Shown in pieces: positions 37,963 through 64,000 of a stretch of 64,000 bases of DNA. The stretch is taken from the NCBI RefSeq assembly GCF_029784135.1, contig NC_073746.1:54534097-54598096 (forward strand), in the 5' to 3' direction. The notes beneath the pieces were generated by a model, which was not told where the DNA came from, ran no database searches, and saw nothing but the letters and a program-made list of their open reading frames with translations. This DNA is from Toxorhynchites rutilus septentrionalis. Taxonomy: Eukaryota; Arthropoda; Insecta; Diptera; Culicidae. Numbering within the stretch: the stretch's first letter is position 1; every line of letters starts with the position of its first letter. A program made the position numbers and the translations under genes.

Positions 37963-38135
37963 ATCAACATGTTCATAGTAAACTAATCCATTTTTCAGGT
38001 AGATAGGTAGGTATTCACGTAGGAGAAGAAAATAAAACAATATATTTAAAATATATATTTAACAAAAGCTGTCCTCTTTGTATAGTCCTACGTCACTCCG
38101 GTTATGTCCCCGACATTACCCACCCGTCTTTTTTA

Positions 38136-39429: not shown

Positions 39430-39616
39430 GAAAAAACAGGAAGTGGGTTATATCTATGGTATAACCGCAAGGGTGACGTAGGACTATCGTTGATTTAGAG
39501 ATCATTTGTATGAAGTTGAATCTGAATTCATTCTGAATGAATGAATATTTGGAGAACTTCGAAAACGAGAGCGTTACGTTGGAGGCACAAGGTTTTATGC
39601 ATCCAATATTGGACAC
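39430..39616 (-). repeat. Terminal fragment of repeat E
   Basis: This segment is nearly identical to 21284-21460, including AACAGGAAGTGGGTTATATC, GGGTGACGTAGGACTATCG, GAATGAATGAATATTTGGAG and GTTTTATGCATCCAATATTGG. Only this 185-bp end is present. Confidence 0.7.
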
Positions 39617-40477: not shown

Positions 40478-41651
40478 TTACTTCTGTTCCGTATCCACCA
40501 CACGACCAACTCTATACCTTTTTATTCTGTCTTTATGCACAATATCTGATTTCTTATTTAATTGAATCTTTACATTTTCACCCAAATCATCAAGTATTTT
40601 AAATGGGCCTCTATATTTCGCTTCCAGTTTTTTGGAATTTTCGTTCTTGATGAGAACAAGTTCTCCTACTTTAAAATCAGTTTGTTTTTTATTTTCGTCA
40701 TAATTTGCTTTTCGTTTGCATTTTTGGTGTAATAATTGTTTCCTTGCAGCATCATGAGAATGTCGTAGCTTTAATCTCAAATATGTAGAGTAGTCATCCA
40801 GATTGTAGTCAGGTTTTTCTGATATTTCCGTTAAATTTGTGGGTAAATTTGCTAGTTTTCCATACACCAGATAAAAGGGTGTAAATCCTGTGGCAGAATG
40901 TACTGTGTTATTGTATGAGAATTCATAGAACGGTAGCCATTCAGACCAAGTGAATAGTTTCCCGTCGCATTGTATTCTCAGATATGTATTCAGTGTTTTA
41001 TGGGAATTTTCTAAAGCTCCAATGGATTGATGGTGATATGCCGTTGAATTAACTTTCTGTATTTCAAGTATCTTTGCAATATTAGTGAATAGCTCCGACA
41101 TAAACTCAGTTCCTCTATCAGATGCAATCACTTTTGGTACTCCGTATTTCAAAATTACATTAGTTACAAAAGCGTTTGCAACAGTTTGAGTGCTCTTGTC
41201 AGGTATTGGTGTTGCAGTAATGAATTTTGATAATTCGCACTGCGTAGTCAGAATGTATTCAAATCCTTCTGATTTAATCATTGGACCTACTATGTCCAGA
41301 TAAACTTTTTCAAATGCAGTTTCTGCAGTCGTTGTGATTTTCATAGGAATCTTTGTATTGGTTGGTTTATTCATTTGACATTGTTTACAACGTTTTACAA
41401 ATTCCTCTATATCTTTGCTCATACCTCTCCAATAGTATCTCTGTTGGATAGTGTTGAGCGTTCTTTTGATTCCTGCATGGCCTGCAGTTGGCAATAAATG
41501 AAAATCATTCATAATAAGTAATTTTTCATTTTCGTCCTTGACCTCTTTCATGTGTTTTCCAATTATATATATTTTCGGCATGCCTTTTAATTTTAATGCA
41601 TTGATGTTTTTTATTAATTCATTTATCGTTGCAACGTTATTTTTTACAATC
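40478..41651 (-). pseudogene. Ty3 integrase segment of pol
   Basis: The HHCC zinc region is visible as AGHAGIKRTLNTIQQRYYW and CKQCQMNK. The catalytic core follows: DIVGPMIKSEG (first Asp), VIASDRGTEFMSELF (second Asp) and HHQSIGALENSHKTLN (Glu). A chromodomain-free C-terminus with KYRGPFKILDDLG and DIVHKDRIKRY precedes the stop near the 3' LTR. The upstream part of pol is at 48332-50744, separated by the BEL insertion; joining across CAATC restores phase. Integrase would insert the cDNA. Confidence 0.88.
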
Positions 41652-41946
41652 TGTAAAATACAATTTAAAGCCAATTAATTTGTTGTTGAACCCTATCGAA
41701 TACATAAGCCAGATATGCCATCAGAACAAAATATTTCATGTCTATTGTTTAAATCGGCTGGTCACCACACAGATGTAATTACAATCAGTGTCAATAAAGA
41801 TCTCGAAGCATCAGCATCGTCTTTCATCTCGATCTCGTTCGGCTTATTTTTCCATTATTGGAAGAAATTAAAATTTCGTCGTTTTTCGAATTAATCTCCT
41901 CTCGTACATCGCAATTCGCGAATTATACTTAGTGTCGTCTCGAACA
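41652..41946 (+). repeat. BEL element 5' LTR
   Basis: 295 bp starting TGTAAAATACAATTTAAAGC and ending GTGTCGTCTCGAACA. It contains AATAAAG (near 41795) as a possible polyadenylation signal and, towards the end, TCGTCTCGAACA. Matches the 3' LTR without visible difference. Confidence 0.93.
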
Positions 41947-41964: not shown

Positions 41965-42594
41965 TTCGGTTGGACGCGGTTATCACATTGTGGTGAAAAG
42001 AACACGTGGCTCCGAAACTGAAGAATTTCTCGTTTGTTGAGCGCCAATTGACAAAGCGAATTGTGTGCCGATTGCATCAAGTGTTCGTAGGAGTGCTAAA
42101 TCAAAAATTCTCAGTGAAATTTCCAACATTCTTGGACATTGTGGATCCACGTGGTTATCGATCTATTGTTTCGCGATCGGTTACCTCGCGAGCCATTGTT
42201 GGTGATCTATTGTTTCGCGAAGGATTGGTCAGTGAACTATATTGTTTCGCCATTTCATTGTTGGGTGATCTACTATCCCGTGAACAATTGTTTGAGAATC
42301 CATTGGGTCGCGAAATATCTCAAATATCTCGCAATTTGTCGTCTGGAACTAAATCGAGAGTGACTAATAGTTTTCCCACTGGAAATAAGAAACGGAATTA
42401 CGAAAGAAAACGAGGAATTTAGTGGATTCCAGATTTCCAGTTCACGAAGCACGTGTTGCCGTGCAGCATCATCGACGCCATTGGCAATTTGAGTCGGTTG
42501 GTGGATGTTTTAACAGCGCTCTCAAACATCAGGTGGGTTCGTTCCATACTATAATTCGAATAACACGAACGAATCTTTCTCCGAATTTGTCGAA
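41965..42594 (+). other. BEL leader with repeated CTATTGTTTCGCGA words
   Basis: The leader between primer site and gag contains degenerate repeats at about 42160-42240: GATCTATTGTTTCGCGA near 42159 and 42207, TATATTGTTTCGCCA near 42239, plus TGGGTCGCGAAATATC near 42303. It could hold packaging or dimerisation signals; no long conserved protein is encoded. Confidence 0.5.
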
Positions 42595-45500
42595 ATGTCG
42601 CAAATCGAACAGAAAATATCCGATGATATCACCGCGATGCAAGCGCGTGTAGATAATATAACAAGATCAATGAGAAGAATAGAAGAGTTCACAAAAAGGT
42701 TCGATGCGGAGAAAGATTCGGGGCAGGTTTCGGTAAGGTTGGCTAGGCTTGATGAATTGTTCGAGCATTATGGCGAGACGGTTTTGAAGTTGCAACTTCT
42801 CTCTCCAGTGTCGAAGAAGGAGTATGAGGGTCTGTTGGATGATGCGGAGGAACGATTTTATCGATGCAAATCAATCCTAACCAATGTCTTACCGAAACAA
42901 CCAGCTACGAACCAATCACGATCAAATCAAACCGTAACCCAGATCAATCATGTGAAGTATCCCGAGCTAAAATTACCAGAATTCAGCGGCAAACTAGCTG
43001 ATTGGCAGTCGTTTCATGACTCCTTTGATGCGGCGGTAAACTCATGTGCACAATTAAGCGCAGTGCAAAAATTTCAGTACCTCAAAAGTACACTGAAAGG
43101 TGAGGCACTCCGATTGATTGATCCTCTCGCTGTCTCATCGGAAAATTATCCCCTGGCATGGAAAACGTTAGTTAACCGTTATAATAACAAACGTCTCTTG
43201 ATCAAGTGTCACATAAAGGCACTTTTCGACACTCCTGCAATGCGACGTGAATCTCCAGAGTCGCTTCTGGAGTTAGTTGACAGTTTTGAACGAAACATCT
43301 CCATTCTAAAAAGACTTGGTGAGCCTGCGGATCGTTGGAGCTCAATCTTAGTGTATCAGTTGAGTTTACGTCTAGATAACCGAACGCTAAGAGAATGGGA
43401 ACATCATGCCTCGAGAGATACCGCTAGGGAAGATGGCGCGATAAATGACGGGATGCCATCGTATGTGTGCATGATTCAATTTTTACAGGATTATGCTCGA
43501 GTTTTACAATCGCTTTCGCCTGTTTCACAAATTTCACAGCAAACGTCTTATCGTACTGTGGAAACAAAAACAAAAATGAAGTCGTCAGTTTATCACGCCG
43601 CTGAATTCTCGTCGTCGTCCTCACCATCATGCCACAGCTGTGGTCAAAATCATTATCTCGCCAATTGTCCGAAATTTCGTAGGTTGTCGCCTCGTGAACG
43701 GTTGGATTTCGCAAAAGGTCATCGCCTATGTTTGAATTGTCTCAGAACTTCATCGCACATTTGTAAGAATTGCCCGTCATCGAACTGTCGAAAATGTGAA
43801 CGCAAACATCATACGCTGCTACACTTACCTCCTCTCGAGTCGTCTCATACAGATCAACAGACATCACATCTGCCAATCGTAGCCAATCTTAACCAACCTG
43901 GTCCCCCACCTGTATTACCATCCACCCAAGTGCGACAATCAGCTCTTTGTCCCACCGTAAACCAAACCGCTCATTTTGCAAATTCTGGGAATGATATTGG
44001 AGTCTCATCAAATCTGTCGGAATCTCTAGCAGCACATTTGAATTGCGGCAGCGATTTGGTTCTTCTGTGGACTGCACTCGTCAACTTTGAGGATATGAGT
44101 GGAAAAATACATCCTGTTAGAATACTCCTCGATTGTGGATCACAATGTAATTTTATCAGTGAATCGCTCCGTCAAAAACTTAGTCTCGATACCGTCGTCT
44201 CTCGTGTAGATGTAGCTGGAATTGGATCAAGTATCGCAAAGGTTGAACGTTCGTCTGTCGCCGTCGTCTCATCTCGTGTAGCCCCCTACAGAAAGAAATT
44301 AGCTTTCCTTGTTCTGCCAGCGATCACTAGAGCCTTGCCACATAAGACCGTATCCTGTATCGATTGGAACATTCCAAATTATGTCTATTTGGCTGATCCT
44401 ACGTTCAATATACCGGGTCCAATCGATGCTATCATCGGAAACGAATGCTTCGCGGAAATACTGCGATATGGAAAAATCAACCTAGAAAATAATAATCCCG
44501 TTCTCCAGAAAACCCTTTTTGGATGGGTGGTCTCCGGCAAATGTAAAGAAGACATCAACCCAATCTCGTGTCATTCGTATCATATTAGTCGGCTTGATAG
44601 CCTGGAAAGGCTAGTAACAAAATTTTGGGAGATGGAATCGTGCTCCTCAGTAGACAATTGGTCACCGTCGGAGCAGGAATGTGAAAATCATTTCAAGCAA
44701 AATACAACCCGTGACGATCGCGGAAGATATGTTGTCAAGTTACCGAAAAGACTCGAATTAATTTCCCAGTTGCGGGACAATAAGTATAACGCTCAACGTC
44801 GTTTCCTTGCACTTGAGCGGAAATTGGAAGCAAATCTTGAACTCAAAACCATGTATCACGAGTTCATTCATGAATATATATCGATGGGCCACATGCGGGA
44901 AATATCGGCGGAAAATGATCAGTCGCCTCAATATTTTTTACCCCACCACGCGGTGTTACGCCCCGAAAGTTCGACGACGAAGCTTCGTACTGTTTTCGAC
45001 GCGTCATGCAAATCGCAATCCGGAATGTCGCTCAACGATGTGTTATTGACCGGACCCACAATACAACAATCGCTCATCGCTCTAGTAATGCGATTCCGCA
45101 TGCATGCGTACGTGGTAACCGCCGATATCGCCAAAATGTACCGCCAAATAATGGTACATCCTACCGATCAGCCACTACAGCGGATTTATTGGCGAGATGA
45201 TAAAAACACAACGCTCAAAATATTCCAGTTACAGACGGTTACTTATGGCACCAACAGTGCATCGTTCCTCGCAACACGCGTGTTGAAGCAGTTAGCCGAG
45301 GATGAGAAGGTTAAGTTCCCGCTCGCTGCACCGGTAATCCGCAGTGATTTTTACATGGACGATCTTCTTACTGGCTGCGAAGATCTCAACAAGCTGAAAG
45401 AAACATGCTCGCAACTCGTTTCCATGTTAGACTCGGCTGGATTTCAGCTACGTAAATTTTCGTCAAACTCCCAGGATGTCCTCAACATGATCCCAGAGCA

Positions 45501-47970
45501 TCTGAGGGAGTCAAAAACCATTCTCGAGTTTGAATCTGGTTCCTCAATCAAAACCTTGGGATTGCTGTGGGAACCAGCATCAGACTTTATCAGTTATAAT
45601 GTTCCTGATTGGTCACCTATTGAAAGATATACAAAACGAATTATGTTGTCGCGGATGTCGAGGCTATTTGACCCACTTGGATTGTTGGGTCCTCTCGTTG
45701 TGACTGCAAAAATCACAATGCAGCTCGTATGGAAGGAACAAATTCCATGGGACAGTACCTTGCCCCCTGTCATTCGTCAAATGTGGGAAGAATATCAAGT
45801 ACAAGTAGCCCAAATCAGAAACATACGCATTCCACGATTTGTATTGTCCCTCTGCAAAAATAGTGCATTGCAGATGCACGGATTCTGCGATGCTTCCATG
45901 CAGGCCTACGGAGCATGCATATACGTACGATCTATTGCTCCTGACGAATATTGTACTGTTCGCCTGATCGCCACCAAATCTCGTGTCGCTCCCCTAGAAG
46001 TGAAGTCGATCGCTCGACTAGAGCTGTGCGCAGCTCTTTTGCTTTCGCAACTAACCAATACCGTTTTGGATAGCATTGGTCGCGTCCAAGAGATATTTCT
46101 GTGGACCGACTCTACTATAGTCTTACACTGGCTAGCGGCGACACCGTCAACTTGGCAGACCTTTGTCGCGAACAGAGTCGCCGAAATACAACGACTTACA
46201 CCCAATGTAGTTTGGAGACACGTTCCCAGTTTGGAAAATCCCGCCGATCTGCTTTCGAGAGGGATGATCTCAAAGGATCTAATGGACAGCTCGTTGTGGT
46301 GGAATGGGCCGGAATGGTTAGCTACAACCAACCACCTTTGGCCTGATAACATTCGTCCTTCCCAGCAAGTTGCAGATCAATTTTTGGAATCTCGCAAAAT
46401 ATCACTCCATTCATCGTGTTCACCGTCTGAGTTAATTGAACAATATTCCTCATTGACAAAATTACTCCGCATAGCATCTCTCTGTCGTCGTTTTGCACAC
46501 AACAGTGGTTCTGGCAATGTACGTCGTCTGGGTCCACTCACGAAGCTAGAAATAAGACAAACATTGTTGTCACTGATACGACTAGTCCAGGAACAGCATT
46601 TTTCTGCAGAAATAAGCGCTCTCGCTGCGGGAAGATCTGTATCTCGTTCATCGCGTCTACGTTACCTCCACCCCATGCTACAGAATGGCCTCATTCAAGT
46701 TGGTGGCCGGTTACATTTTGCCAAGATTTCGCCTGACAGGAAGTTTCCTTTCGTGTTACCGGATAAAAATCCGTTAACTTCTTTAATTGCAGACACAATA
46801 CACCAACAAACGCTGCACGGAGGATCACAACTGCTCCTGTCGACCATTCGTCACGAATTTTGGCCGTTAGGAGGTCGAAATCTGGCCAGAAAGACCGTCC
46901 ACAATTGCGTGACATGTGCAAAGGCAAAGCCTCGAACCATTGAGCAACTTATGGGTCAACTCCCACCGGAAAGAGTTTCACCAGCATATCCATTCCAGTT
47001 TGTAGGAATAGATTACGCCGGACCCATTTACCTACGACCAAACACACGGAAAGGAGCACCTATTAAGGCTTACGTAGCGGTGTTTGTTTGCCTGGTGGTG
47101 AAGGCATCACATCTCGAACTAGTAACCGACTTAACTTCAGCTGCTTTCATCGCCGCACTTCGCCGGTTCATAGCCCGACGCGGGGTGCCAACTACCGTGT
47201 ACTGTGATAACGCCACTAATTTCACAGCAGCGCAACGTGAGCTAAAAGAGCTACGCCAACAGTTTCTTTCACAGAAACACAAGGAAGCAGTACACAACGA
47301 AGCCAGCACACTCAAGATCGAGTTTCACTTCATCCCGCCACATGCCCCAACGTTCGGTGGCCTGTGGGAGGCGTGCGTGAAGTCTTTCAAACACCACCTC
47401 CGCAGAATAGTGGGGAATAGTCTACTCTCAGCTGAAGCCGTTTCCACAGTGTTGGCTCAAATCGAAGGCGTTTTAAACTCTCGGCCAATAACTCCCCTCT
47501 CGTCTGACCCAAGCGATCTACAGGCCTTAACGCCAGGTCATTTTTTGATTGGCCGTCCGATTCTGACATTACCAGAACCTGACCTCTCGGAGATACCGAC
47601 GTCTCGGCTTGATATGTGGCAGAAGATGCAGCTTTTAACTCAGCACTTTTGGAGACGTTGGCAGGACGAATACTTGTCCACGTTGCAGACTCGCTACAGG
47701 TGGACAACAGTCAACCAAAACCTCCTCATTGGATCAATCGTGCTTATACGGGATGATAATCAACCAATAGGGAAATGGTCCATGGGGAGGGTTACGGATG
47801 TTCACCCAGGAGAGGATGGACTCGTGCGGGTTGCCACCCTCAGGATACCCAGCGGAAAATTAATAAAGCGTCCGATAACCAAAATCTGTCGACTACCAGT
47901 GGAAGTGGATGCTGTCACCGTAGCCGAGCGTCCACAATCAACGACCGAACCTCCAGCACAAACCGTATAA
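42595..47970 (+). CDS. BEL/Pao Gag-Pol polyprotein, 1791 residues
   Basis: One uninterrupted frame. Coiled N-terminus, then gag core (YPELKLPEFSGKLADWQSFH, about residue 121), zinc knuckles CHSCGQNHYLANC (about 346) and CLNCLRTSSHICKNC with a following CRKCERKHH. Protease LLDCGSQCNFIS (about 508), with Cys where many relatives have Ser. RT with VVTADIAKMYRQI (about 840) and catalytic FYMDDLLTG (about 919). RNase H with FCDASMQAYGACIYV (about 1097) and FLWTDSTIVLHWL. Integrase with HHCC zinc (CVTCAKAKP), D-D-E residues in VGIDYAGP, YCDNATNF and FGGLWEACVK, and a C-terminal DUF5641-like domain. Length and order are those of complete BEL elements. All catalytic motifs seem intact. Confidence 0.95.
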   Translation: MSQIEQKISDDITAMQARVDNITRSMRRIEEFTKRFDAEKDSGQVSVRLARLDELFEHYGETVLKLQLLSPVSKKEYEGLLDDAEERFYRCKSILTNVLPKQPATNQSRSNQTVTQINHVKYPELKLPEFSGKLADWQSFHDSFDAAVNSCAQLSAVQKFQYLKSTLKGEALRLIDPLAVSSENYPLAWKTLVNRYNNKRLLIKCHIKALFDTPAMRRESPESLLELVDSFERNISILKRLGEPADRWSSILVYQLSLRLDNRTLREWEHHASRDTAREDGAINDGMPSYVCMIQFLQDYARVLQSLSPVSQISQQTSYRTVETKTKMKSSVYHAAEFSSSSSPSCHSCGQNHYLANCPKFRRLSPRERLDFAKGHRLCLNCLRTSSHICKNCPSSNCRKCERKHHTLLHLPPLESSHTDQQTSHLPIVANLNQPGPPPVLPSTQVRQSALCPTVNQTAHFANSGNDIGVSSNLSESLAAHLNCGSDLVLLWTALVNFEDMSGKIHPVRILLDCGSQCNFISESLRQKLSLDTVVSRVDVAGIGSSIAKVERSSVAVVSSRVAPYRKKLAFLVLPAITRALPHKTVSCIDWNIPNYVYLADPTFNIPGPIDAIIGNECFAEILRYGKINLENNNPVLQKTLFGWVVSGKCKEDINPISCHSYHISRLDSLERLVTKFWEMESCSSVDNWSPSEQECENHFKQNTTRDDRGRYVVKLPKRLELISQLRDNKYNAQRRFLALERKLEANLELKTMYHEFIHEYISMGHMREISAENDQSPQYFLPHHAVLRPESSTTKLRTVFDASCKSQSGMSLNDVLLTGPTIQQSLIALVMRFRMHAYVVTADIAKMYRQIMVHPTDQPLQRIYWRDDKNTTLKIFQLQTVTYGTNSASFLATRVLKQLAEDEKVKFPLAAPVIRSDFYMDDLLTGCEDLNKLKETCSQLVSMLDSAGFQLRKFSSNSQDVLNMIPEHLRESKTILEFESGSSIKTLGLLWEPASDFISYNVPDWSPIERYTKRIMLSRMSRLFDPLGLLGPLVVTAKITMQLVWKEQIPWDSTLPPVIRQMWEEYQVQVAQIRNIRIPRFVLSLCKNSALQMHGFCDASMQAYGACIYVRSIAPDEYCTVRLIATKSRVAPLEVKSIARLELCAALLLSQLTNTVLDSIGRVQEIFLWTDSTIVLHWLAATPSTWQTFVANRVAEIQRLTPNVVWRHVPSLENPADLLSRGMISKDLMDSSLWWNGPEWLATTNHLWPDNIRPSQQVADQFLESRKISLHSSCSPSELIEQYSSLTKLLRIASLCRRFAHNSGSGNVRRLGPLTKLEIRQTLLSLIRLVQEQHFSAEISALAAGRSVSRSSRLRYLHPMLQNGLIQVGGRLHFAKISPDRKFPFVLPDKNPLTSLIADTIHQQTLHGGSQLLLSTIRHEFWPLGGRNLARKTVHNCVTCAKAKPRTIEQLMGQLPPERVSPAYPFQFVGIDYAGPIYLRPNTRKGAPIKAYVAVFVCLVVKASHLELVTDLTSAAFIAALRRFIARRGVPTTVYCDNATNFTAAQRELKELRQQFLSQKHKEAVHNEASTLKIEFHFIPPHAPTFGGLWEACVKSFKHHLRRIVGNSLLSAEAVSTVLAQIEGVLNSRPITPLSSDPSDLQALTPGHFLIGRPILTLPEPDLSEIPTSRLDMWQKMQLLTQHFWRRWQDEYLSTLQTRYRWTTVNQNLLIGSIVLIRDDNQPIGKWSMGRVTDVHPGEDGLVRVATLRIPSGKLIKRPITKICRLPVEVDAVTVAERPQSTTEPPAQTV

Positions 47971-48031: not shown

Positions 48032-48326
48032 TGTAAAATACAATTTAAAGCCAATTAATTTGTTGTTGAACCCTATCGAATACATAAGCCAGATATGCCA
48101 TCAGAACAAAATATTTCATGTCTATTGTTTAAATCGGCTGGTCACCACACAGATGTAATTACAATCAGTGTCAATAAAGATCTCGAAGCATCAGCATCGT
48201 CTTTCATCTCGATCTCGTTCGGCTTATTTTTCCATTATTGGAAGAAATTAAAATTTCGTCGTTTTTCGAATTAATCTCCTCTCGTACATCGCAATTCGCG
48301 AATTATACTTAGTGTCGTCTCGAACA
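48032..48326 (+). repeat. BEL element 3' LTR
   Basis: 295 bp, no visible differences from the 5' LTR. It is preceded by a purine-containing tract (AAGGTGGCCGGCA) at the position of the polypurine tract and followed by target duplication CAATC. Confidence 0.93.
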
Positions 48327-48331
48327 CAATC

Positions 48332-50744
48332 AATGCTCCTATTTTTTCTTTTTCAGTAAATTCAATGATTCGGTTCATCATTCCCCGTAGGTGAATTGAT
48401 GTCGTCATCAAAGGGATTACTATTTTGTTTTTGGAAAACTTTACGTCCTTTGTTTTTTGGTCTATCTCAAGTTCTACACTGTCTATGACGGATGGTGAAG
48501 GGTGATCAATCCTTTCTTCACTCGTCATTTCAGATGAACTTTGTTTCGTCGATCGTTCCATAGAACGTGTTGTTATTAGACAATTCTTGTTATTTAGTGA
48601 TTTAAGTTCTTGGATCGAAATTCGCGATAACGCGTCCGCTATCACATTTTCCGCTCCACGTTTGTAAATCACCTCGAAATCATATTCTTCTAAAGCCAAT
48701 CTAAATTTTGTTAATCGGCTTGAAGGGTCATTAAGAGAAAAAAGATATACTAAAGGTCTATGGTCAGTATATACTATAAACTTCCTTCCCCATAATAAGG
48801 TCGAAAATGTCGTATACCCCATACCATAGCCAATAGTTCTTTCTCAAGAGTAGGATAATTTTTCTCTGCTTGATTGAGCATTTTACTGGCGTACGCAACC
48901 GGTCTGTCATTACTATTAGATAGAACAGCTCCAATCGCAATACCAGATGCATCAGTGTGCAGAGAGAATGTATTGTCATTTGAAAAATTCGGAAAATCTA
49001 ATATCGGTGGGTTCATAAATCTTTTTCTAAGTTCATTGAAAGATGTTTCGCACTCATTCGTCCAGACAAATTGCATATGTTTCCTGGTGAGAAGATTTAA
49101 AGGTGCACACAAGAAAGCAAAATTCTTTATATGCTTTCTATAGTAGTTTGCAAATGTCACAAACCTTTTCACTTCGTCAGCAGTGACAGGTCTAGGCCAA
49201 TTTTTTATAGCGTCCACTTTAGCAGGATCTGGTTTGATTCCGTTCGCTGAAATAAAATGTCCTAGATAGACTAATTGTTCTTGTAGAAAGTTACACTTCG
49301 CTGGGTTTAGCTTTAAGTTAACTTCCCGTAAACTTTCAAATATCGTGATTAAGTTCTTGTTATGTTCCTCAAATGTATTACCAAATATAATAAGATCATC
49401 AAGGTAAACTAAACATTGTGTTCCATTGAGACCTGACATTGCAGTCGTCATGAGTCTTGAAAAAGTAGATGGGCTTGTTTTCAATCCCATCGGCAATCTG
49501 GTCATTTGGTATTGTCCAGTTGCTGTAGAAAATGCCGTCACAGGTCTATCTTCTGTTCTTAATTGACATTGATAGTATCCTTGTGACAAATCTAAGTGCG
49601 TAAAGTATTTAGCTCCTGCTAAGGAGTCGATCACTTCTTCAATATTTGGAAGTGGAAACTTGTCATTCTCGAGAATATTGTTGAGTTTTCGATAATCAAC
49701 AACCAGTCTCCATTTTTTAGAATCATCATCCGATTTTTTGGGTACAAGTAAAATCGGGCAGTTCCATTCAGAACGAGTTTTTTCAATAATCCCGTCTGAT
49801 AACATTTTCCCAATTTGTTTATCAATCTCCTTCTTTTGAGATTGCGGCAACCTGTATTGTTTTGAATATATTGGCTTCGCATCTTTTTTTAGATTTATTG
49901 TTGGCGTAAATATATCTGTTTTTGTTAGCTTATCATCCTTTAAACAAAAGATGTCCGCGTACTTCATACAAATTTTTCTTATCATCTGCTTCTCCTTAGT
50001 TTGCAGATGTGTCATATTAAGTTCCTTGAGCAATTCGCTTGCCCTATTTGTGTCATACTTAGGAAAATTTATATTTTCGATTTGATTATAATTCTTCAAA
50101 GGTTTGACCTCAATGTCTAATGATTTGATACATGTTGGTTTGTCCGCTATATTCACTAACCTTACTGGTATCTTACCTTGTTTAGGTGTAGCTAGTAAGT
50201 TAGCTATAAAAACTGAAGTTGTGATCTGTTTATTTAAAACCAAACAGTCTTCTTTATATTTAGTCATTACATATGTGATTATTTCTGAACGAGGAGGTAT
50301 AGTTACAAAAGCACGATTATTAGATATGAAGGGAATTACTATTGTTGTGGGATTGTTTCTCAATTCTAAAGTTAAAGAGTTGAAATTGATGATTGCGTCA
50401 TTTTGTCGTAGAAAATCTGTACCGAGTAAAGCTGGAACGCTTTCTGGTAGTTTCTCTATAACATGTAACGTAATAGGAAATTTAAATTTCTTGTGTCCTA
50501 AATTCACATCAATTGTTCCAATGGAACAAGATGTACCATTTATGCCATTAACTTTCAATGAATTATCCTTACAAATTGGTATATTATCTGGCACAAGTCT
50601 TTTTGATATTATTGAACAACTTGCTCCAGTATCAATAATAAAATTAATTGGATCATCTAGTAAGTTCAACGGTATTCGTAGTAATCCATTACATGAGTTA
50701 GTCACGAAAAAGTTCGCCAACCACATTGACTTCTTCTTCTTCAT
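48332..50744 (-). pseudogene. Ty3 pol: protease, RT and RNase H, one frameshift
   Basis: The frame opens as an overlap with the gag end in a different phase, as in frameshift-expressed pol. Protease FIIDTGASCSIISK; RT with KWRLVVDYRKLNNI, THLDLSQGYYQCQL, and catalytic CLVYLDDLIIFG; RNase H with LHTDASGIAIGAVLSN and YPTLEKELLAMVW. One missing base near 48785 moves the following YTDHRPLVYLFSLNDPSSRL and GAENVIADALSRI into another frame. The BEL element then interrupts pol before integrase. Confidence 0.9.
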
Positions 50745-51900
50745 TCCGCTGTTGCCTAGTATTGTTCTGTTCTGCTACATTCACGTGAGCATTATTTTGT
50801 CTGTTGCGGTTGTTAGTGTTACTATTATTGTTATTGTTGTTGTAATTGTTGCCTCTGTTCCCATTGTTATTATAATTCTGAAAATTTCCTCTGCGGAAAT
50901 TTCCACGTCCCCTGAAAAATCCGCGGCCTCGCCTGAATCCAGACGCGCGACCTCTCCAATTATTGTAGTTTCCTCTCCAATTATTGTTATGTTCTCCTCT
51001 AGTGTATTGCTGAAAATTGCACCATAAAGCCATTTCATTTCTTGGTTTCGATGTACCTGGGTTGCACTCTAAGGCGTCAGAGATAGCTTTGTTTAGGTTA
51101 GTGGGGTTTCTAGCCCTCAGCAGAAATTGCGTAGTCGGATCGTTAAGTCCTTCCACAAAAACTCTGACTGCTATCGGTTGAACAATATTCGTAGCAGCCG
51201 CTTCTGATACAAATGTGCCTTGCGACACATGTGCCGAAGCTAATTTCGTTGCCAAATTCTCTATCTCTGTCCCGAAATCCGTAATATTTTTATTCTGTTG
51301 CTTTTTTGAAAGCATTTCACTTTCCACGGCTCTTGGTGTAATTTTTACTGCAAATTTATTTTTTAATGTTAAAAAAGCTTCATCTACCGTTTTTGTATTG
51401 TCTATGGTACCGTGAGCAGCACCAGATAAAGTAATTTTCATGAATTTTATTATATCTGCCTCTGGTACTTCGGAGGAATAGTCTTTTAAGAGTTGAACAC
51501 TCTCTATGTAGCTTGCTAAAGTGTTTGCCGATCCATCGAAAGGTTTAACTACTTTAAGGGCTAGCACTAAATCAAGTTTATTCGCCATCTTATTATTATC
51601 TTCAAATAAACCGGAAATATTTACATCTATCTGGTTGTCAATGTCTTTATCTAATTTTAATAACTGAAAACTCTCTTTTATAATATGACCCAAAAATCTT
51701 ATTTTCTCTATAAATAATTTGTCTTTGCTTAGATCTTTGTTCTTATAAATCAATTTATTAATATCTTCACGTATTTTAATTAGTCGATTTCTCTTTAAAA
51801 TTTTAGTCTCTTTTTTGTGTTTGTTGAATTTCTTCAAGTTGCTGTGCAATCTGACAACTTCTTCATACAGTATAAAAAATTGTTCCATTCCACTCACCAA
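50698..51900 (-). CDS. Ty3 gag, 400 residues, RG-rich and without zinc knuckle
   Basis: Open from ATG at 51900. N-terminal basic helix-rich segment, then a capsid-like region (ANKLDLVLALKVVKPFDGSA, TLASYIESVQLLKDYSSEVP, AVRVFVEGLNDPTTQFLLRA) and an Arg/Gly/Asn-rich tail with GRASGFRRGRGFFRGRGNF and an Asn run. No CCHC knuckle is seen, which fits mdg1/412-type elements. Gag would form the particle and the RG tail would bind RNA. Its end overlaps pol by 47 bases. Confidence 0.87.
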   Translation of the reverse strand: MVSGMEQFFILYEEVVRLHSNLKKFNKHKKETKILKRNRLIKIREDINKLIYKNKDLSKDKLFIEKIRFLGHIIKESFQLLKLDKDIDNQIDVNISGLFEDNNKMANKLDLVLALKVVKPFDGSANTLASYIESVQLLKDYSSEVPEADIIKFMKITLSGAAHGTIDNTKTVDEAFLTLKNKFAVKITPRAVESEMLSKKQQNKNITDFGTEIENLATKLASAHVSQGTFVSEAAATNIVQPIAVRVFVEGLNDPTTQFLLRARNPTNLNKAISDALECNPGTSKPRNEMALWCNFQQYTRGEHNNNWRGNYNNWRGRASGFRRGRGFFRGRGNFRRGNFQNYNNNGNRGNNYNNNNNNSNTNNRNRQNNAHVNVAEQNNTRQQRNEEEEVNVVGELFRD

Positions 51901-56379: not shown

Positions 56380-57632
56380 CGGATATTTTGGGAACCGCGA
56401 TCTCAAACCTAGACAAACTTATTACCTACAGGATGCGGCGAGCAGAATATGGTGAAGTTCGTACCCAATATTGTCGTCTTAGACTATCTTTCTGAACCGG
56501 CATCATTGCTGAAGCCGTGAAGACGAAGGCGATCAACTATTTGCAAAGTGGCTATCAGAACCAGCTGAAGTATAGACGTCCAGATGGATCGTTCAGCCTT
56601 TGGGGTGGATCTGACCCTAAAGGAAGTACATTCTTGACAGCGTTCGTAGCAAAGTCATTCAAAATAGCTGACAAGTACATTTATATCGATAAATCGATAG
56701 TTGCAAATGCCTTCCGCTGGTTAGCAAGTAATCAGAGCCCAGACGGACGTTTTGTTGAAGTGGGACGCGTTTATCACTCGGAATTGCAAGGAGGTCTACG
56801 AACTACGTGCTTCGCGCTCACGGCCTACGTATTGATTGCGTTTCTGGAGAGTGAAGATATTGCAGTGGAGCATAGAGTTATAGTTTAAAAAACGACTAAT
56901 TATCTGGTTTCTAATTTATACAATATGAACGATGCATACGATTTGTCATTAGCAACATATGCACTATCTTTGGCCAATCATTCGAAGCGGATCGATTTCC
57001 TGACTAAGTTGTTGGAGAAAAACAATAAAACTGACATTGTGCAGTATTGGAATGGAGCTCCGGTCGAAGTTGAAATCGTGGGAGATGCTTTGATGTCCCA
57101 CATTTCTCAGGGTATGTTCGTGGATGCAACACCTATTATGCGATGGTTAAACGAGCAACGTTATGAGCTAGGAGGATACAGAGGTACCCAAGATACATTC
57201 GTGGGTTTGAAAGCATTGGCCAAATTTGCAGCCAAAATACGTTCTCATAGAAATAACTATCGAGTAACTATTAAGCATTCTCCAAACCAAGTTCATACGT
57301 TTGATATTGATAAGCATAATTCCTTTGCAATTCAAAAAAGGGACATACCCAACGTACGTAGAGTTCAAGTTGAGATTTCGGGAATCGGTCACGGTGTCTG
57401 CCAGGTGGCCTACCAATATTACTTGAATGTACAGCAGGCTAAGCCACAGTTCGATTTGAGCGTGCAAGTGTTGAACACTACAACAGCGTATGTACAGCAT
57501 TTACAGGTTTGCGTCAAATATCGTCCCTTGGAAGCCTACCAAGTATCGAACATGGCACTAGTTTAAGTGTTCTTCCCAAGTGGTCTAATAGCGGATGAAA
57601 AAGCTGTCCGAGATATCGGAAATCGAATTCAG
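56380..57632 (+). pseudogene. TEP: TEP thioester-domain exon with GCGEQ motif
   Basis: It starts [15 protein letters not shown], then a deletion of about five bases (near 56424) puts the next stretch in another frame: [20 protein letters not shown]. The Cys and Gln of GCGEQ (56431-56445), which form the internal thioester in the family, are unchanged. A further shift at 56518 (TGA) leads to KAINYLQSGYQNQLKYRRPD and an alpha-helical toroid. TAA interrupts at 56886-56888 (before KTTNYLVSNLYNM) and at 57564-57566 (before VFFPSGLIADE). Ends at GTAGGT. Confidence 0.92.
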
Positions 57633-58045: not shown

Positions 58046-60420
58046 GTTAGCGCTCAATTTTCGTACTGAGCAGACGCGTTTTGCTATAGCAGCAGCGAAA
58101 GTAGATCTCAAACTATTATCCAAGTAACAAAAGTTTTCTGAATTGGAGTTACAACAACGAGTCGTTGACACGGTGTGTGGCGGCTCCCCGATGAATCGTC
58201 GCGAGAACACCTTTCGCATAGACTATGCGAACCTTCCGAAAAAACCGGAATACTCAAAAATCCACAATTTCTGTGGAACCGTACTAAAATTGAAGCAAGG
58301 AGAGGTGACGCGCATACAATGCAATAGAACACTCGGGTGTGCATTCATAAAAGTCGTTAGCAACGAGCTCGCGAAGAAAATATGCGAAGAGAACGACAAC
58401 AAGCATGAGGTGAACGTTGATGGTAAAATGTATCGTCTACGAATCGTGATGGAGGATGGAGCGACAGAAGTGAAATTGTTCGATCTATCCGAAAGAGTCA
58501 CCGATCGAAAAATCGCAGAATTTCTCAGAGGATATGGGGAAGTGATTTCGATACAGGAGCAAATATGCGGCTCTGACCTGTTTTTCCCGGGAATCTCCAC
58601 GGGTACTCGTGTTGCGAAAATGATAATAAAACGAAACATCGAATCGTGGATAACGATCGATGGAGAGCGGACACTCGTGACCTATCTTGGACAACAGCAG
58701 ACATGTCGTCATTGCCGTGATTTCATCCATAATGGGATCACGTGCGCGCAGAACAAGAAACTACAGGTGCAGAAGTCGTACGCCGATGCGGCGAAACAGC
58801 CTGCTTCAGACACACGAGCACCAAATAGATTGAAATTGCCGACAAAAATTCAAGAGATGTCAAAATTAGGTACTAAACCACCACCGAGACCAAAAGAGCA
58901 GCTGTTAATGCCTCCTCCGAATTCTATAGAATCGGAATCAGAATTATCAGCACGACACGCATCAATAAGTGCGACACAACCATCGGGCTGCGGGTCAATG
59001 AACGATAGACTGGTTCAACGACCCCCTGCTAGCGGCGGAGTGGATTGCGAAACTGCTAGTAGTAAACCCGATGGCAACGAAACTGATACTGCGTCGACCA
59101 GCCGAAGACTTAGCTACTCAGCAAACTCAGCAGTACTCTCCGCATTACCTAGTGCGACTCAGCCATCGGATAGCGGGTCATTGCTCGATAAACAAGCTCA
59201 GCGACCCCCTGCTAGCGGCGGAGTGGTACGCAAAACCGCTGGTGGTAAATCCGATGGCAACGATACTGACACATCGTCCACGTCGATCACTAGCCGACAA
59301 CTTCGGGTACGACCGCCGGGTAAGAAACGGCGAGAAGATAGCGATGACGAAAGAGGCGAACCAAAGCAAAAATGAGCCAGTTCGTCAGCTACAACATCGC
59401 AACTATAAATATCAACACAATTACAAACAATACTAAGCTTGAAGCCCTTCGTACATTTGTGCGCACGATGGAGCTTGACATCTTATTCCTGCAAGAGGTA
59501 GAGAACGAAAATTTGTGTCTCCCCGGCTACAACGTCGTCTGCAATGTGGACCACGCGAGAAGAGGGACGGCTATAGCACTAAAACAACACATTCAGTTCA
59601 CGCATGTCGAAAAGAGTCTGGATGGTCGCCTCATCGCTCTGAGAGTGCAGAATACAACGTTGTGTAATATCTACGCACCATCGGGAACAGCACTGCGTGC
59701 TGAGAGAGAACGTTTCTTCAATGCCACAATCGCGTACTATCTCCGACACACCACCGAGCACGTGATACTCGCCGGAGATTTCAACTGTGTACTTCGGCCA
59801 AGCGATGCGACTCACTACAACACTAGTCCCGCTTTGCAAGCGACGGTACGACAACTACACCTGCATGATATATGGGTTAAATTATACCCAACAACCCCCG
59901 CGCCAACGTACATCACTCATAATGCGACTTCCAGGCTCGATCGTATATACGTCAGCAGTGGGCTTTGCGAACATTTAAGAAATGCCACGACACATGTATG
60001 TTCATTCACCGACCACAAGGCGGTAACAGCTCGGATATGTCTGCCTTCTCTAGGAAGCGCGCAAGGGCGAGGGTTTTGGTGCCTGCGTCCTCATTTGTTA
60101 ACCCAAGAAAACATGGAGGAGTTTAAAAATCGATGGCAATTTTGGACTCGTCAGCGTAGAAATTTCAGCAGCTGGATGACATGGTGGATATTATGTGCAA
60201 AGCCGAAAATTCTGTCCTTTTTTCGATGGAAATCCCGGGAAATATACAAGGAGTATCACATTATACATCAACGGTTATATACTCAACTCAGACTCGCATA
60301 CGACAATTACTATGGAAATGCCGCCATGTTAACGAACATCAATCTGTTGAAGGCGCAAATGCTCGCGCATCAGAGACGTTTCGCGCAAAATTTCATGCAC
60401 ATCAACGATACATTACTCAT
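58046..60420 (+). mobile_element. LINE B copy 2, intact 5' half, 3' end missing
   Basis: It has the same leader as copy 1 (GCGCTCAATTTTCGTACTGA) and complete ORF1, but breaks off in ORF2 after the endonuclease region near 60420. The following 418 bp are unrelated to LINE B. Losing the 3' rather than the 5' end is unusual for LINE insertion and points to later rearrangement or to insertion-linked deletion. No target duplication was found. Confidence 0.85.
58191..59375 (+). CDS. LINE B ORF1, 394 residues, open
   Basis: Starts MNRRENTFRIDYANLPKKPE. Residues about 60-160 look RRM-like (DRKIAEFLRGYGEVISIQEQ), followed by the zinc knuckle CRHCRDFIHNGITC (CX2CX4HX4C) and a long Ser/Pro/Gly-rich tail in which the phrase PPASGGV recurs near residues 285 and 350, showing an internal duplication. 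ATG chosen because copy 1 has the homologous start. Stop overlaps the ORF2 start as ATGA. Probable RNA-binding protein. Confidence 0.85.
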   Translation: MNRRENTFRIDYANLPKKPEYSKIHNFCGTVLKLKQGEVTRIQCNRTLGCAFIKVVSNELAKKICEENDNKHEVNVDGKMYRLRIVMEDGATEVKLFDLSERVTDRKIAEFLRGYGEVISIQEQICGSDLFFPGISTGTRVAKMIIKRNIESWITIDGERTLVTYLGQQQTCRHCRDFIHNGITCAQNKKLQVQKSYADAAKQPASDTRAPNRLKLPTKIQEMSKLGTKPPPRPKEQLLMPPPNSIESESELSARHASISATQPSGCGSMNDRLVQRPPASGGVDCETASSKPDGNETDTASTSRRLSYSANSAVLSALPSATQPSDSGSLLDKQAQRPPASGGVVRKTAGGKSDGNDTDTSSTSITSRQLRVRPPGKKRREDSDDERGEPKQK

Positions 60421-60442
60421 GTGCTGTGAGCGTCTCCGTTAA
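59372..60442 (+). pseudogene. LINE B ORF2 endonuclease, truncated before RT
   Basis: MSQFVSYNIATININTITNN, FLQEVENENL, YAPSGTALRAE, LAGDFNCVLRP, RLDRIYVSS and FTDHKAVTARI give a full apurinic-type endonuclease with catalytic residues in place. LINE homology ends near HINDTLLM; the final CCERLR codons come from foreign DNA. There is no reverse transcriptase, so it cannot retrotranspose alone. Confidence 0.85.
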
Positions 60443-60837
60443 AGCATTGTTTTCGGTTACCGTTGGCTGTTATTTTTTTTTATCGCCCGGGTGTGCTTTT
60501 TTCGCGCGTTTTCGAACTGTTCGAGATATCGTAAAACGCAGTGTGAACTCGGAATTAGAGAGAAAAGCAGAATCATCAAAGCCTGGCAAGGCCAGCCGGC
60601 TTTCAGTTTTCGCCGATTTGTCGCCATCGCAATCGAAGTCGGACATCGGTGCTCAGTTGCACGCACACAATACCAGCGCGATTCGCTGTTCACTTACAGC
60701 AGTGTGAAGGAGAGCATCACTTCTTAGTGGTGTGTGATAGTGCCGAGCGCTCAAGCGCTCCGATTGAGAAGCAAGCAGCGGTTGCCAGTTCATCAGCACT
60801 GGGTGCATTGTGGTGAATAGAAATAAATAAGATATAA
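60421..60837. other. Unidentified segment between LINE B and the third H2A element
   Basis: GC-richer than its surroundings, with CGCGCGTTTTCGAAC, GCCTGGCAAGGCCAGCCGGC and a perfect 7-bp-arm palindrome GAGCGCTCAAGCGCTC (60745-60760). It ends GAATAGAAATAAATAAGAT, reminiscent of a LINE or SINE tail. Composition resembles a LINE 5' UTR, but no homologous piece exists elsewhere in the window. Confidence 0.35.
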
Positions 60838-61298
60838 GATTTTGACGTAGGACTACGTCTAACCGGAAGATATAGGGGGTGAAATGGAAATCTAGGCACT
60901 GAACAAGTAGGAAAAAATGCAAGATTTGGAACGCTTATAACTCGAGCATTTCTCAATAGATCGCAAAGGTTTTTGCATCAATTGATAGGAAATATATCTA
61001 CGCATCTATCATAACGAATAACATTTCATTTTTCATGAGATAAATAATTGAATAATCGTGAAATATCAAGCATTGTTAAAATGCCCTATGTGCCCATTTT
61101 TGATTGGTCCATTTTGTGCTCCTCAAATCGTACCGACCAAAACGGGCAACCAGAGCAGCAGCGAAATAGAATGAAGCACGATTGGAAAGGAAGAAGAAAA
61201 AAATGAACGAAACATTGGTCGCAGTCTCACACATGCGTAATTCTCGAGCCAGCCAGTCAGCTTAAAAATCCCCGCTCCGCTGCCGTAACGATCATTCT

Positions 61299-61501
61299 TT
61301 GTGTGGACACCGTCTGGACAACATCGTTGCTGGACGAGCTGGACGGCGAGGGATCGAGTGCCTTTCTCAAGGCAAGAGGGCGGAGGTGGTAGCGCTGGAG
61401 TAGAGTAATAGAGTAGAGTAGAGTTTTCAAATGGCCTTTCTCAAGGCTAGAGACGAATGAACTGCAAAAGTTTAAAGTCTCTAGAATACAAGACCTTCCT
61501 T
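61299..61501 (+). mobile_element. SINE-like insert in H2A promoter (copy 3)
   Basis: This is the same insert and insertion site as 31342-31540, flanked by CCGTAACGATCATTCT (61283-61298) and CCGTAACGATTATTCT (61502-61517). It differs by a short AGAGTAGAGT expansion. The shared insertion shows copies 2 and 3 descend from one inserted ancestor. Confidence 0.75.
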
Positions 61502-61580
61502 CCGTAACGATTATTCTCATTCAAACCGTACACCACATCGGTTCGCATCACAACACATCAACAAACCAACCCAAGCAGCC

Positions 61581-61790
61581 ATGTCTGGACATGGTAAAGG
61601 AGGAAAAGTGAAGGGAAAGGCAAAATCCCGCTCGAACCGTGTTGATCTGGGGTTCCTCGCAAGGGTAGCTAGGCCGAGCGCGTTAGTACCAGTGCACCAG
61701 TCCACCTAGCCGGCGTTATATAGTTTCGGCCGCCGAAGTGATCGAGTTGGCTGGTAAAGCTGCTCGCGACGATAAGAAAACCCGCATTCA
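61581..61790 (+). pseudogene. Histone H2A unit 1 (copy 3)
   Basis: ATG and 42 open codons: MSGHGKGGKVKGKAKSRSNR then VDLGFLARVAR. Canonical R4 is H, and GRIHRLL is missing before the RKG position. In a second frame from 61738, IELAGKAARDDKKTR matches the H2A acidic-patch helix. No intact globular domain can be made. Confidence 0.9.
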
Positions 61791-62007
61791 GAACAGAACA
61801 CATCAAGACAACAGGCAGTTGCAGCGAGTGGCGAGTGGCAAACGCAATCGCAAAACGGCATCAGGTAGCAGAAGAAAAAAGTTTGTTCTTTATACAAACT
61901 GCTTTGGTGGCAAATCCAGAACAAGGCGGCATCGAGGGCGTTCGAAATGGTTTTTTTCAAAACCACGAGTACTAAGTTTTCTAAATTGGAACCTTTCCAT
62001 AAAACAA

Positions 62008-62023
62008 GGCGCTTTTCAGGGCC
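62008..62023 (+). terminator. Histone 3' stem-loop, one mismatch (copy 3, unit 1)
   Basis: GGCGCTTTTCAGGGCC followed by ATTAAACC and AAAAAAGAG. Same single C-to-G change in the stem as at 32061, so it was present in the common ancestor. Confidence 0.75.
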
Positions 62024-62852
62024 ATTAAACCTTCCAAAAAAGAGTTTACGAAATACAGTTCAATGCTTTCTAAAACATTATCCAAAATAATAATAAAACA
62101 CAAATTGATTTTTTTCATCATTTGTTTGCCAGGATCTGATGAGTATGTGAATTTGGCAGTTGTTCTGAGCTTATTGATAGTTGGGGACTTTCCTGATTAT
62201 TCAATTTTCACCAATTCTTAAATTGTTTCCAGATTGAACGTACAGTAATTTACAATTAGTTCGACATTTAGCTAATTGGACGGACCTGCAATGCGACTTA
62301 TTAAGTTGAACATTTTTGTAAACATAGAGATCCAAATTATGACCCCACATTGAAAGTCGACACTGTACCACTGTCATCGCAAATGTTCAATTACAGGTTA
62401 AAATTACCTCCAATCCGATACTGAGTGGTGGTAATGCGACGTGCCATTGAATGTAATTTACTGTAAAATATGTCACAAGCTGGATGGGAAGAAATTTTCC
62501 AACTGTGAAAGCTGTGGCGAGTGACAAATGCAATCGCTAAACAGAAAGGTTTAGCCGAACTAGATGGGGATATCGAGTGATAACAAAACAATAAACTCTT
62601 TAGATTGAAGATAATTTTGTGATCCTGAAAAAGACCCTTTTTAGCCTGCATGTGAATCCAACGAGCGAACAAATCGTAATGAATGTATTTTTTTTTCATT
62701 CGTTCGTCTCGTTGGACTCGCCCCTCTGGCTGAGTCTGCCGATTTGTCTCTATCCTGTGAGTGTGTACCGCTAGAGTATAAAACACGCGGACCCCAAAAA
62801 AATATCTTATTTTCTTTCAAACCGTAAACCCGTGTGGTTGTACGGCATCGGC

Positions 62853-63084
62853 ATCGTGGACGTAACAAAGGAGGACAAGTTAAGGGAAAGGCAAAGTCTC
62901 ACTCGAACCGTGCAGGTCTCCAGTTCCCTGTTGGTCGCATTCACTGATTGCTCCGCAAGGGTAACTAGGCCGAACGGATTGGTGCCGGAGCACCAGTATA
63001 CCTAACAGCGATTATAGAGTTTCGGCCGTCGGAGTGCTAGAGTTGGCTTGCAAAGCTGCTCACGACAATCAGAAAACCCGCATC
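62853..63084 (+). pseudogene. Histone H2A unit 2 (copy 3), most complete H2A remnant
   Basis: The start codon is changed to ATC. The frame then reads [26 protein letters not shown], stop, LLRKGN, stop, AERIGAGAPVYLTAIIEF: contiguous H2A with only two in-frame stops, each one base from the expected Arg and Tyr codons. A frameshift then leads to VLELACKAAHDNQKTRI. About 90 of the usual 124 residues can be followed. The C-terminal tail is absent. Confidence 0.92.
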
Positions 63085-63323
63085 AAGAACAGAGCAGCTT
63101 CGGTTCGGCGCACATCAAGGCAACAATTAGTTTCAGTGAGTGGCAAAGTGTTTCTCCGGCACGTCGCATTAAATGTAATTTACTGAACAACATGTCACAA
63201 GCTGGATAGGAAGAAATTTTCCATCTGTGAAAGCTGTGGCGAGTGGCAAACGCAATAGCTAAACAGGAAGGTTTAACCGAACAAGATGGGAATATCGAGT
63301 GATAACAAAAACACAACACCAAA

Positions 63324-63339
63324 GGTTCTTTTCAGAACC
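63324..63339 (+). terminator. Perfect histone 3' stem-loop (copy 3)
   Basis: GGTTCTTTTCAGAACC preceded by CACCAAA and followed by ATCAAC and AAAGAGTAAACAG. The upstream, stem, loop and downstream purine block are all consistent with a U7-processed histone mRNA end. Confidence 0.88.
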
Positions 63340-63525
63340 ATCAACATATTCATAAAGAGTAAACAGTAAACTAATCCATTTTTCAGGTAGATAGGTAGGT
63401 ATTCACGTAGGAGAAGAAAATAAAACAATATATTTAAAATATATATTTAACAAAAGCTGTCCCCTTTGTATAGTCCTACGTCACTCCGGTTATGTCCCCG
63501 ACATTACCCACCCGTCTTTTTTTTT

Positions 63526-63624
63526 ATTATTATTTTTTTTTTAATTATTATTATTATTAAAACAAAATATTAGATTATAAGTACCAATTACAGAATAGCA
63601 GAAGGAGGGGGAGGATCTCCAGAT
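63526..63624. other. AT-rich tract between H2A element and LINE ORF1
   Basis: Runs of T and (ATT)n/(TAA)n. It could be the 3' boundary of the H2A element, a microsatellite, or the 5' UTR of the following LINE. Confidence 0.4.
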
Positions 63625-64000
63625 ATGGAGATCTCTGATGATGACTCCCCTCTGGTTGAAAAAACAAATAAAGGAACAGCGAAGACACTTAAACGCGTTC
63701 CTACATCAGAGGATGTTTCGTCCGGGGACGAGTCTGCTAACTCTAGCAAGCCCCCCTCTAAAAAACCTGCAAATATCTCCTCTCCAACCCCCCTCGCTCC
63801 TACCCCAGCTCAGATTTCGCCTCCCAATCCTGTTGTCCCCGATCCCCTTCAATCCTCGTCATCTCCTTCTCCTCCTGTTATCTTCTCTCCACGTGTCAAG
63901 GTCTATCCTGAAGATGCACCTGGAACTGGTCCGTGGGTTGTTTTCTTCAGGCCTAAGCCAAACGGAAAAGCACTTAATGTTATTCAGATCATGAAAGATC
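63625..64000 (+). CDS. Start of a LINE ORF1 (I/Jockey-type gag), runs off window
   Basis: From ATG at 63625 the frame stays open to the window edge: MEISDDDSPLVEKTNKGTAK, a long Ser/Pro-rich linker with SSGDESANSSKPPSKKPA, then TGPWVVFFRPKPNGKALNVI and QIMKD. The PWVVFFRxxPxGKxLNVIQI phrase is typical of the RNA-binding region of insect I/Jockey-type ORF1 proteins. Overlapping frames lack any such match. It could be the 5' part of a complete element lying beyond the window, possibly the LINE A family, which also has I-like features. Confidence 0.7.
   Translation, partial: MEISDDDSPLVEKTNKGTAKTLKRVPTSEDVSSGDESANSSKPPSKKPANISSPTPLAPTPAQISPPNPVVPDPLQSSSSPSPPVIFSPRVKVYPEDAPGTGPWVVFFRPKPNGKALNVIQIMKD

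Follow-up and report, generated by a model that had tools for sequence, protein, structure and literature searches.

How did remnants of the histone gene H2A come to lie at three places within a single stretch of mosquito DNA, and do the sequences that carry them belong to a mobile element? The stretch analyzed here (the window) comprises 64,000 nt of Toxorhynchites rutilus septentrionalis (contig NC_073746.1, positions 54,534,097–54,598,096 of the forward strand), and all coordinates refer to it. The three H2A-bearing copies are referred to as family F1. They are very probably non-autonomous Helentrons (HINEs) that carry a captured and now broken H2A gene.

Copies, nesting and ends of the H2A-bearing family

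The region described as mobile was aligned with the whole window by blastn, and three copies of F1 were delimited, one of them in three segments:

60840–63525 (terminal Ts included), plus strand: copy 3, HINE-type, both ends, two H2A units; from blastn matches to copies 1 and 2 and from end anatomy
30877–33759, plus strand: copy 2, HINE-type, both ends present, two H2A units
22686–38134, interrupted, plus strand: copy 1, one H2A unit; three pieces align to copy 3
22686–22765, plus strand: copy 1, 5' end segment, 78 nt at 100% identity to copy 3
27310–27799, plus strand: copy 1, middle segment, identical to copy 3 at 98.2% of 342 nt and 96.4% of 168 nt; contains H2A residues 1–26 (27715–27792)
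37040–38134, plus strand: copy 1, 3' segment with the remainder of the single H2A unit, the stem-loop and the 3' end

The copies share the same ends and the same internal order, and their edges in the blastn alignments within the window were sharp on both sides. Copies 2 and 3 differed in 75 of 2258 compared columns (3.3%) when the rearranged alignment columns 2102–2671 were dropped; when columns up to 2290 were kept, 114 of 2446 differed. The flanks of copy 3 (60400–60839 and 63526–64000) had no match elsewhere in the window (blastn, E 1e-5), nor had the 131 and 173 bases compared beside copy 1. Copy 1 is split by an element of the same end class (~22766–27309), listed further below, and by a long interspersed nuclear element (LINE, ~27800–37039). 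This LINE, which we take to belong to the L1 clade, contains a second LINE sequence:

27800–37039, plus strand: L1-like LINE with endonuclease and reverse transcriptase (RT) domains (Pfam); its insertion into copy 1 is marked by a short duplication, AAGGG
33760–35688, minus strand: LINE fragment inside the L1-like LINE, with no Pfam match of its own

The minus-strand fragment was 94–95% identical to the open reading frame at 8747–10132, which has an RNase H domain. Copy 2 lies beside or inside the poly(T) tract end of this fragment. When the flanks of the block formed by the minus-strand fragment and copy 2 were joined, a single open RT frame ran through the YADD motif. The order of nesting is copy 1, then the L1-like LINE, then the minus-strand LINE, then copy 2. 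Because copy 2 lies inside the LINE that interrupts copy 1, the F1 family moved more than once, and some of its insertions appear to be older, others younger, than LINE insertions. A preliminary description, made from the letters of the window, had proposed a mobile, non-autonomous family; the exact common ends, the differing flanks and the nested position of copy 2 agree with this. The shared ends and internal order that it reported were recovered by alignment, as were its one or two degraded H2A units per copy (one in copy 1, two each in copies 2 and 3), and its copy coordinates were right to within a few bases.

Both ends of F1 carry a 12-bp subterminal inverted repeat, GACGTAGGACTA. The terminal letters are TTTTGACG... 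at the left and ...CCCGTCTTTT at the right, and the end signature of the family is GACGTAGGACTA...TAGTCCTACGTC together with a 3' hairpin:

60844–60859 (also 22692–22707, and 30886–30901 with one change), plus strand: 5' subterminal repeat, near-palindrome GACGTAGGACTACGTC
63471–63482 (also 33705–33716 and 38083–38094), minus strand: 3' subterminal repeat, inverted GACGTAGGACTA
63488–63508, plus strand: 3' hairpin of copy 3, 8 nt from the end, found by folding

The same end signature surrounds two further families, F2 and F3, whose interiors differ and in which no H2A was detected:

3060–4877, plus strand: F2a, same end class, no H2A found
21277–22208, minus strand: F2b, same end class, internal deletion relative to F2a
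39431–39616, minus strand: F2c, 3' end fragment
15476–17471, plus strand: F3a, same end class, repeat different by one base
22766–27309, minus strand: F3b and further sequence, same end class, no H2A found, in the A6/T6 tract of copy 1
967–1024: F3x, an F3-like 3' end recognized by the end alone; its body would run toward the window start

The 13-nt end motif TAGTYCTACGTCA, with at most one mismatch, matched 15 times in the window, whereas 100 shuffles gave 0.15 matches on average. Every one of these 15 matches was assigned to an element end (6 left, 9 right), the match at 967 by end sequence alone. Left ends consist of T(4–9) followed by the near-palindrome GACGTAGRACTACGTC, from which copy 2 and F2b deviate by single changes, whereas right ends consist of the motif, then 33–38 nt including the hairpin, then T(5–9). 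At least four Ts precede all six left ends, and at least five follow all nine right ends. The 5' repeat is a 16-bp near-palindrome with 7-bp arms and a 2-nt centre. The distance from the 3' repeat to the boundary Ts is 34 nt in F1 and 37–39 nt in F2 and F3 (40–46 nt counting the Ts). F1 and F2 have the 12-bp repeat in common; their 3' hairpin sequences differ, and both fold. The hairpin was clear in all three F1 ends, all three F2 ends and F3x.

The insertion site of F3b is a six-T tract of copy 1, whose uninterrupted form is present at 30949 in copy 2 and at 60907 in copy 3. F3b matched F3a over 888 nt at 95% identity, starting at base 76 of F3a; at the insertion, F3b lacks the outer 75 bp of its 5' side and copy 1 lacks ~40 bp. 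Some further features of these families were observed. The F2 elements (3060–4877, 21277–22208 and 39431–39616) contain internal repeats of ~116–136 bp and a stretch with TATATAAG. The F3 elements (15476–17471 and 22766–27309) contain TATAAA, and F3b has an open frame at 23767–24105 (minus strand) without a Pfam family. The frame at 550–921, next to F3x, had no Pfam match. A possible extra 3' end of the same class, GGTTGTATCCGAGACACGACCGC, was noted by eye at 22430–22475 (minus strand), beside an A7 tract.

Captured H2A units and histone signals

The preliminary description had derived the units from H2A by their translations. This origin held in a tblastn search with Drosophila H2A as the query. 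The best-matching unit (copy 3 unit 2, 62858–63034) was 78% identical over 59 residues (E 1e-26). Matches were also obtained for the remaining units, namely copy 3 unit 1 (61581–61839, combined E 6e-16), the two units of copy 2 (31620–31827, E 1e-15, and 32930–33155, E 1e-13) and the split unit of copy 1 (27715–27792, E 3e-10, and 37106–37165, E 5e-6). A phmmer search against PDB sequences also recovered H2A residues 1–27 (E 5e-8). The units and the histone-type signals of copy 3 are:

61581–61839, plus strand: H2A unit 1, readable to about residue 25, followed by frameshifts and the Tyr40 stop; C-terminus unrecognizable
62858–63084, plus strand: H2A unit 2, residues 3–61 in one frame with two stops (E 1e-26), residues 59–78 in another frame (E 0.004)
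63319–63363 (also 33553–33597 and 37942–37987 in the other copies), plus strand: histone 3' stem-loop, Rfam RF00032
61944–62048, plus strand: two sites downstream of unit 1 that resemble the stem-loop more weakly; at 24.5 and 24 bits they stay under the gathering score
62777–62783, plus strand: TATAAAA, a putative promoter element ~75 nt upstream of the start of H2A unit 2

The reading frame is dead in all five units, with stops and frameshifts, and the C-terminal third of H2A is beyond recognition. The change of the Tyr40 codon from TAC to TAG is common to all five. The two units of copy 3 share just 73% identity over 230 nt. Since units that have diverged this far still share the Tyr40 lesion, H2A had probably become a pseudogene in the master element before its duplication there, which took place long before the separation of copies 2 and 3. 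The single unit of copy 1 may be the ancestral state, or copy 1 may have lost a second unit through exchange between 150-bp direct repeats, which in copy 3 are located at 62439–62588 and 63161–63310. Unit 2 of copy 2 has a tail that looks like unit 1, which we attribute to local rearrangement or conversion.

Two further observations concern the interior of F1. The region 33020–33540 of copy 2 combines the unit-1-like tail in unit 2 with ~100 bp of sequence that has no counterpart in copies 1 and 3. Unit 1 contains a ~200-bp block in copy 3 (61292–61514) and copy 2 (31336–31552) that is not present in copy 1. A 16-bp direct repeat, CCGTAACGATCATTCT, whose copies differ slightly, borders this block. 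Part of the block resembles F2a at 4160–4234, and as a whole it looks like a retroposed insert.

Other core histones were searched for in the window by tblastn. H2B gave nothing at E 1 or better, H3 nothing better than E 0.25, and the best H4 match (E 0.03) fell on the H2A N-terminus itself. Linker histone H1, suspected by eye in the tails of the H2A units, was rejected, as its tblastn matches were unconvincing (best E 0.13, located elsewhere). Pfam assigned no family to three readings of H2A units or to the long frames inside the element, probably because of decay.

RF00032 scored above its gathering score of 34 once in each of the three copies (41, 40.5 and 37.8 bits), each time ~200 bp before the 3' end. 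The 16-nt core of the stem-loop was identical in all three copies; stem-loops were compared with the metazoan consensus. The motif AAAGAG, which we take to be the downstream motif of the histone stem-loop, follows it in copies 2 and 3 and is missing from copy 1. The inner stem-loops have decayed in some F1 copies. The TATAAAA at 62777–62783 probably represents a captured promoter. Mature histone mRNA contains neither the upstream sequence nor the sequence past the stem-loop. As the element contains both, we infer that H2A was captured at the DNA level, together with its upstream sequence and its 3' stem-loop.

Transposition route and rival explanations

The anatomy of HINEs has been described by Thomas et al. 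(2014; PMC4067079). In that description, subterminal inverted repeats (subTIRs) of 12–15 bp lie beside the 5' end and 38–60 bp from the 3' end, a palindrome is present near the 3' end, and insertion occurs into T-rich targets, with the target unmodified and the number of boundary Ts variable (PMC4067079). F1 agrees with the subTIR placement, as GACGTAGGACTA lies by the 5' terminal Ts and its inverted copy near the 3' end. F1 and F2 also have the 3' hairpin and the T-rich insertion with variable boundary Ts. Because its end anatomy is that published for HINEs, F1 was assigned to them. In the two-ended elements of the window, no duplication was seen beyond the Ts, and a duplicated T-tract would look the same as none.

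Several findings weigh against this assignment. The 3' repeat of F1 keeps 12 bp but has lost the outer part of the second arm, so it is not a full palindrome, and two of the nine 3' ends (F3a and F3b) have no clear hairpin fold. The left and right T-runs are equal in three of the six two-ended elements (6/6, 9/9 and 5/5) and unequal in the other three (4/9, 4/5 and 4/7); the equal runs could hint at duplication of the T-tract. The sole uninterrupted paralogous site is that of F3b in copy 1, and because F3b has lost its other end, the insertion boundary could not be fixed there. Finally, the window has 45 stop-to-stop frames of 110 or more amino acids, and Pfam detected no Rep or Helicase domain in the 44 that were scanned (all but 63599–63991), so an autonomous partner is missing there and the enzyme step is deduced from the anatomy. 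End anatomy, repeated movement, H2A content and the common dead codon are direct observations on F1.

In the mechanism that we propose, an ancestral element would have acquired a piece of host DNA that contained one or more replication-dependent H2A genes, along with upstream sequence and the 3' stem-loop. H2A would then have died in the master element and been duplicated within it, the duplication presumably following its death, before the element spread. The Helentron Rep/Helicase/Endonuclease would be supplied by an autonomous relative elsewhere; guided by cis-signals of the element, it would start at the 5' end and stop at the 3' hairpin, and insertion into T-rich DNA would proceed by single-strand, rolling-circle copying. 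As far as sequence can tell, rolling-circle transposition driven by a Helentron enzyme made elsewhere is the most likely route, with the captured H2A most likely a passenger.

A canonical Helitron was considered and rejected: it needs a 5' TC, a 3' CTRR and A/T insertion (PMC4067079), and the F1 ends TTTTGACG and CCCGTCTTTT do not conform. The end patterns had no match in viral contigs and prokaryote genomes, nor had the element in phage records, which is little informative, as these are not insect genomes. A DNA transposon with terminal inverted repeats (TIRs), of the Phantom/Mutator-like element (MULE) type, would resemble Tm1-HH of root-knot nematodes, in which a histone hairpin is present and which is placed in the Phantom group of Mutator (PMC3169594). 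We consider such a transposon with captured histone sequence very unlikely for F1. It would account for the GACG found in opposite orientation at both ends of the three copies (the left end of copy 2 deviates by one change), but the right end of F2 is not GACG, and the inverted repeat of F1 is subterminal and asymmetric. Copy 2, with T9 on both sides, is the only copy compatible with an 8–10 bp duplication. No 9-bp duplication is present: in copy 1 the two sides read TTGTTTTTT and TTTTTTATA and agree in at most T6, and in copy 3 they agree in at most T4. No MULE or FLYWCH domain was found by Pfam in the same 44 frames.

Retroposition, i.e., a LINE-mobilized H2A or an element resembling a short interspersed nuclear element on the minus strand with the A-runs as tails, appears extremely unlikely. 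The minus strand does have A-runs at both ends, and LINEs are present in the window. However, both ends lie at the same base in all three copies without 5' truncation, and the H2A part has an upstream TATA box and sequence past the stem-loop, which are not in processed histone mRNA. F1 also has a conserved subterminal inverted repeat, which to our knowledge is not a feature of retroposons. It is scarcely credible that the copies are an immobile segmental duplication or remnants of a native histone cluster, even though all three lie within 41 kb. Their flanks differ as far as they were compared (~0.4–0.5 kb for copy 3, 131 and 173 bases for copy 1) and copy 2 is nested in the LINE that interrupts copy 1, so plain segmental duplication does not explain the three copies. 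The same end signature also surrounds unrelated interiors, and the absence of H2B, H3 and H4 matches in the tblastn searches of the window argues against a cluster remnant.

A different question is whether the histone cis-signals were kept because they are useful to the element, through S-phase transcription and RNA cut at the stem-loop, instead of being carried as passengers. The stem-loop core remained identical in 3/3 copies while the H2A frame died in 5/5 units, and histone pieces also occur in other elements (PMC4067079; Tm1-HH, PMC3169594). In contrast, the inner stem-loops decayed in some copies, copy 1 lacks AAAGAG, and in a scan for local conservation between copies 2 and 3 no window beat shuffled columns (permutation fractions 0.34–0.995 for the best-conserved 150-, 200- and 230-column windows), although three close copies give low power. 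Usefulness of the signals is unlikely, and what speaks for it is their presence. We give equally little weight to its broader form, in which Helentrons of this insect lineage would repeatedly take up replication-dependent histone genes (H2A in F1, two others in Culex) and keep promoter and stem-loop after the death of the protein because a cell-cycle-coupled, non-polyadenylated transcript would help single-stranded-DNA copying in S phase. We retain the non-autonomous Helentron with a passenger H2A as the preferred reading.

Other contents of the window and known systems

The remainder of the window contains a thioester-protein gene and further mobile elements:

18709–19164 and 56496–57563: exons of a thioester-containing protein gene (Pfam MG4; TED and TEP1_CUB2)
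42514–47967, plus strand: long BEL/Pao polyprotein frame of 1818 amino acids (Pfam)
40481–41674 and 48274–50774, minus strand: pieces of retroviral-type protease, RT, RNase H and integrase

The best solved relatives of the thioester-protein gene are thioester-containing proteins, in keeping with a mosquito origin, and its exons are apparently separated by ~37 kb rich in mobile elements. A search with one of these exons returned a single match, in Cyamophila willieti.

The preliminary description had implied that a mosquito element built around H2A genes was new. This novelty is limited, as a Helentron of Culex quinquefasciatus with captured fragments of two histone genes other than H2A was published in 2014 (Thomas et al., PMC4067079). 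The reported captures are fragments of the H4 superfamily and of H15 (linker histone), in eight copies, and the parental interval of the H4-superfamily fragment is 408 bp (PMC4067079). An interval of this length would fit an H3 gene. The model smart00428 is presumably that of H3. In the open-licence literature, in the parts accessible, we found no report of H2A inside a Helentron; an earlier report may exist.

F1 thus adds H2A to the histone genes reported in Helentrons, with a regulatory 3' stem-loop that travels along with the captured gene. Such copies can mislead the annotation and counting of histone genes. If the stem-loop or the promoter were under selection in many copies, F1 would be a rare rolling-circle element using host cell-cycle signals.

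Among known systems, F1 resembles Helentron-Cq-32A/HINE-Cq, by the published description, in its subTIRs (palindromic in Culex, near-palindromic at the 5' end of F1), 3' stem-loop and T-rich insertion with boundary Ts, and in having captured histone fragments with premature stop, frameshift and indels in several copies (PMC4067079). Unlike in Helentron-Cq-32A as described there, the captured gene of F1 is H2A, present as one or two units, and its 3' stem-loop is intact. HINE-Mo-1 to 7 of the mite Metaseiulus occidentalis resemble F1 in a subTIR of 12–15 bp, palindromic in the mite, located 2–4 nt from the 5' end and 38–60 bp from the 3' end, and in a 5–10 bp palindrome 8–35 bp from the 3' end. 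In contrast to F1, the authors found no protein-coding gene fragments in them (PMC4067079). DINE-1/INE-1 of Drosophila shares with F1 the subTIRs, the 3' stem-loop, the preference for TT and the non-autonomous state, but has its own 13-bp subTIR, which is not palindromic, an inner inverted repeat and its own core sequence (PMC4067079). Tm1-HH of Meloidogyne is also a non-autonomous mobile element with a histone 3' hairpin. It differs from F1 in its composite long TIRs, its duplications of mostly 8–10 bp and the Phantom/MULE transposase of its autonomous form (PMC3169594). With canonical Helitrons, F1 probably has in common the rolling-circle principle as well as gene capture (PMC4067079). Events of this kind are thus already known, and F1 extends them to another histone gene, whose stem-loop has been preserved.

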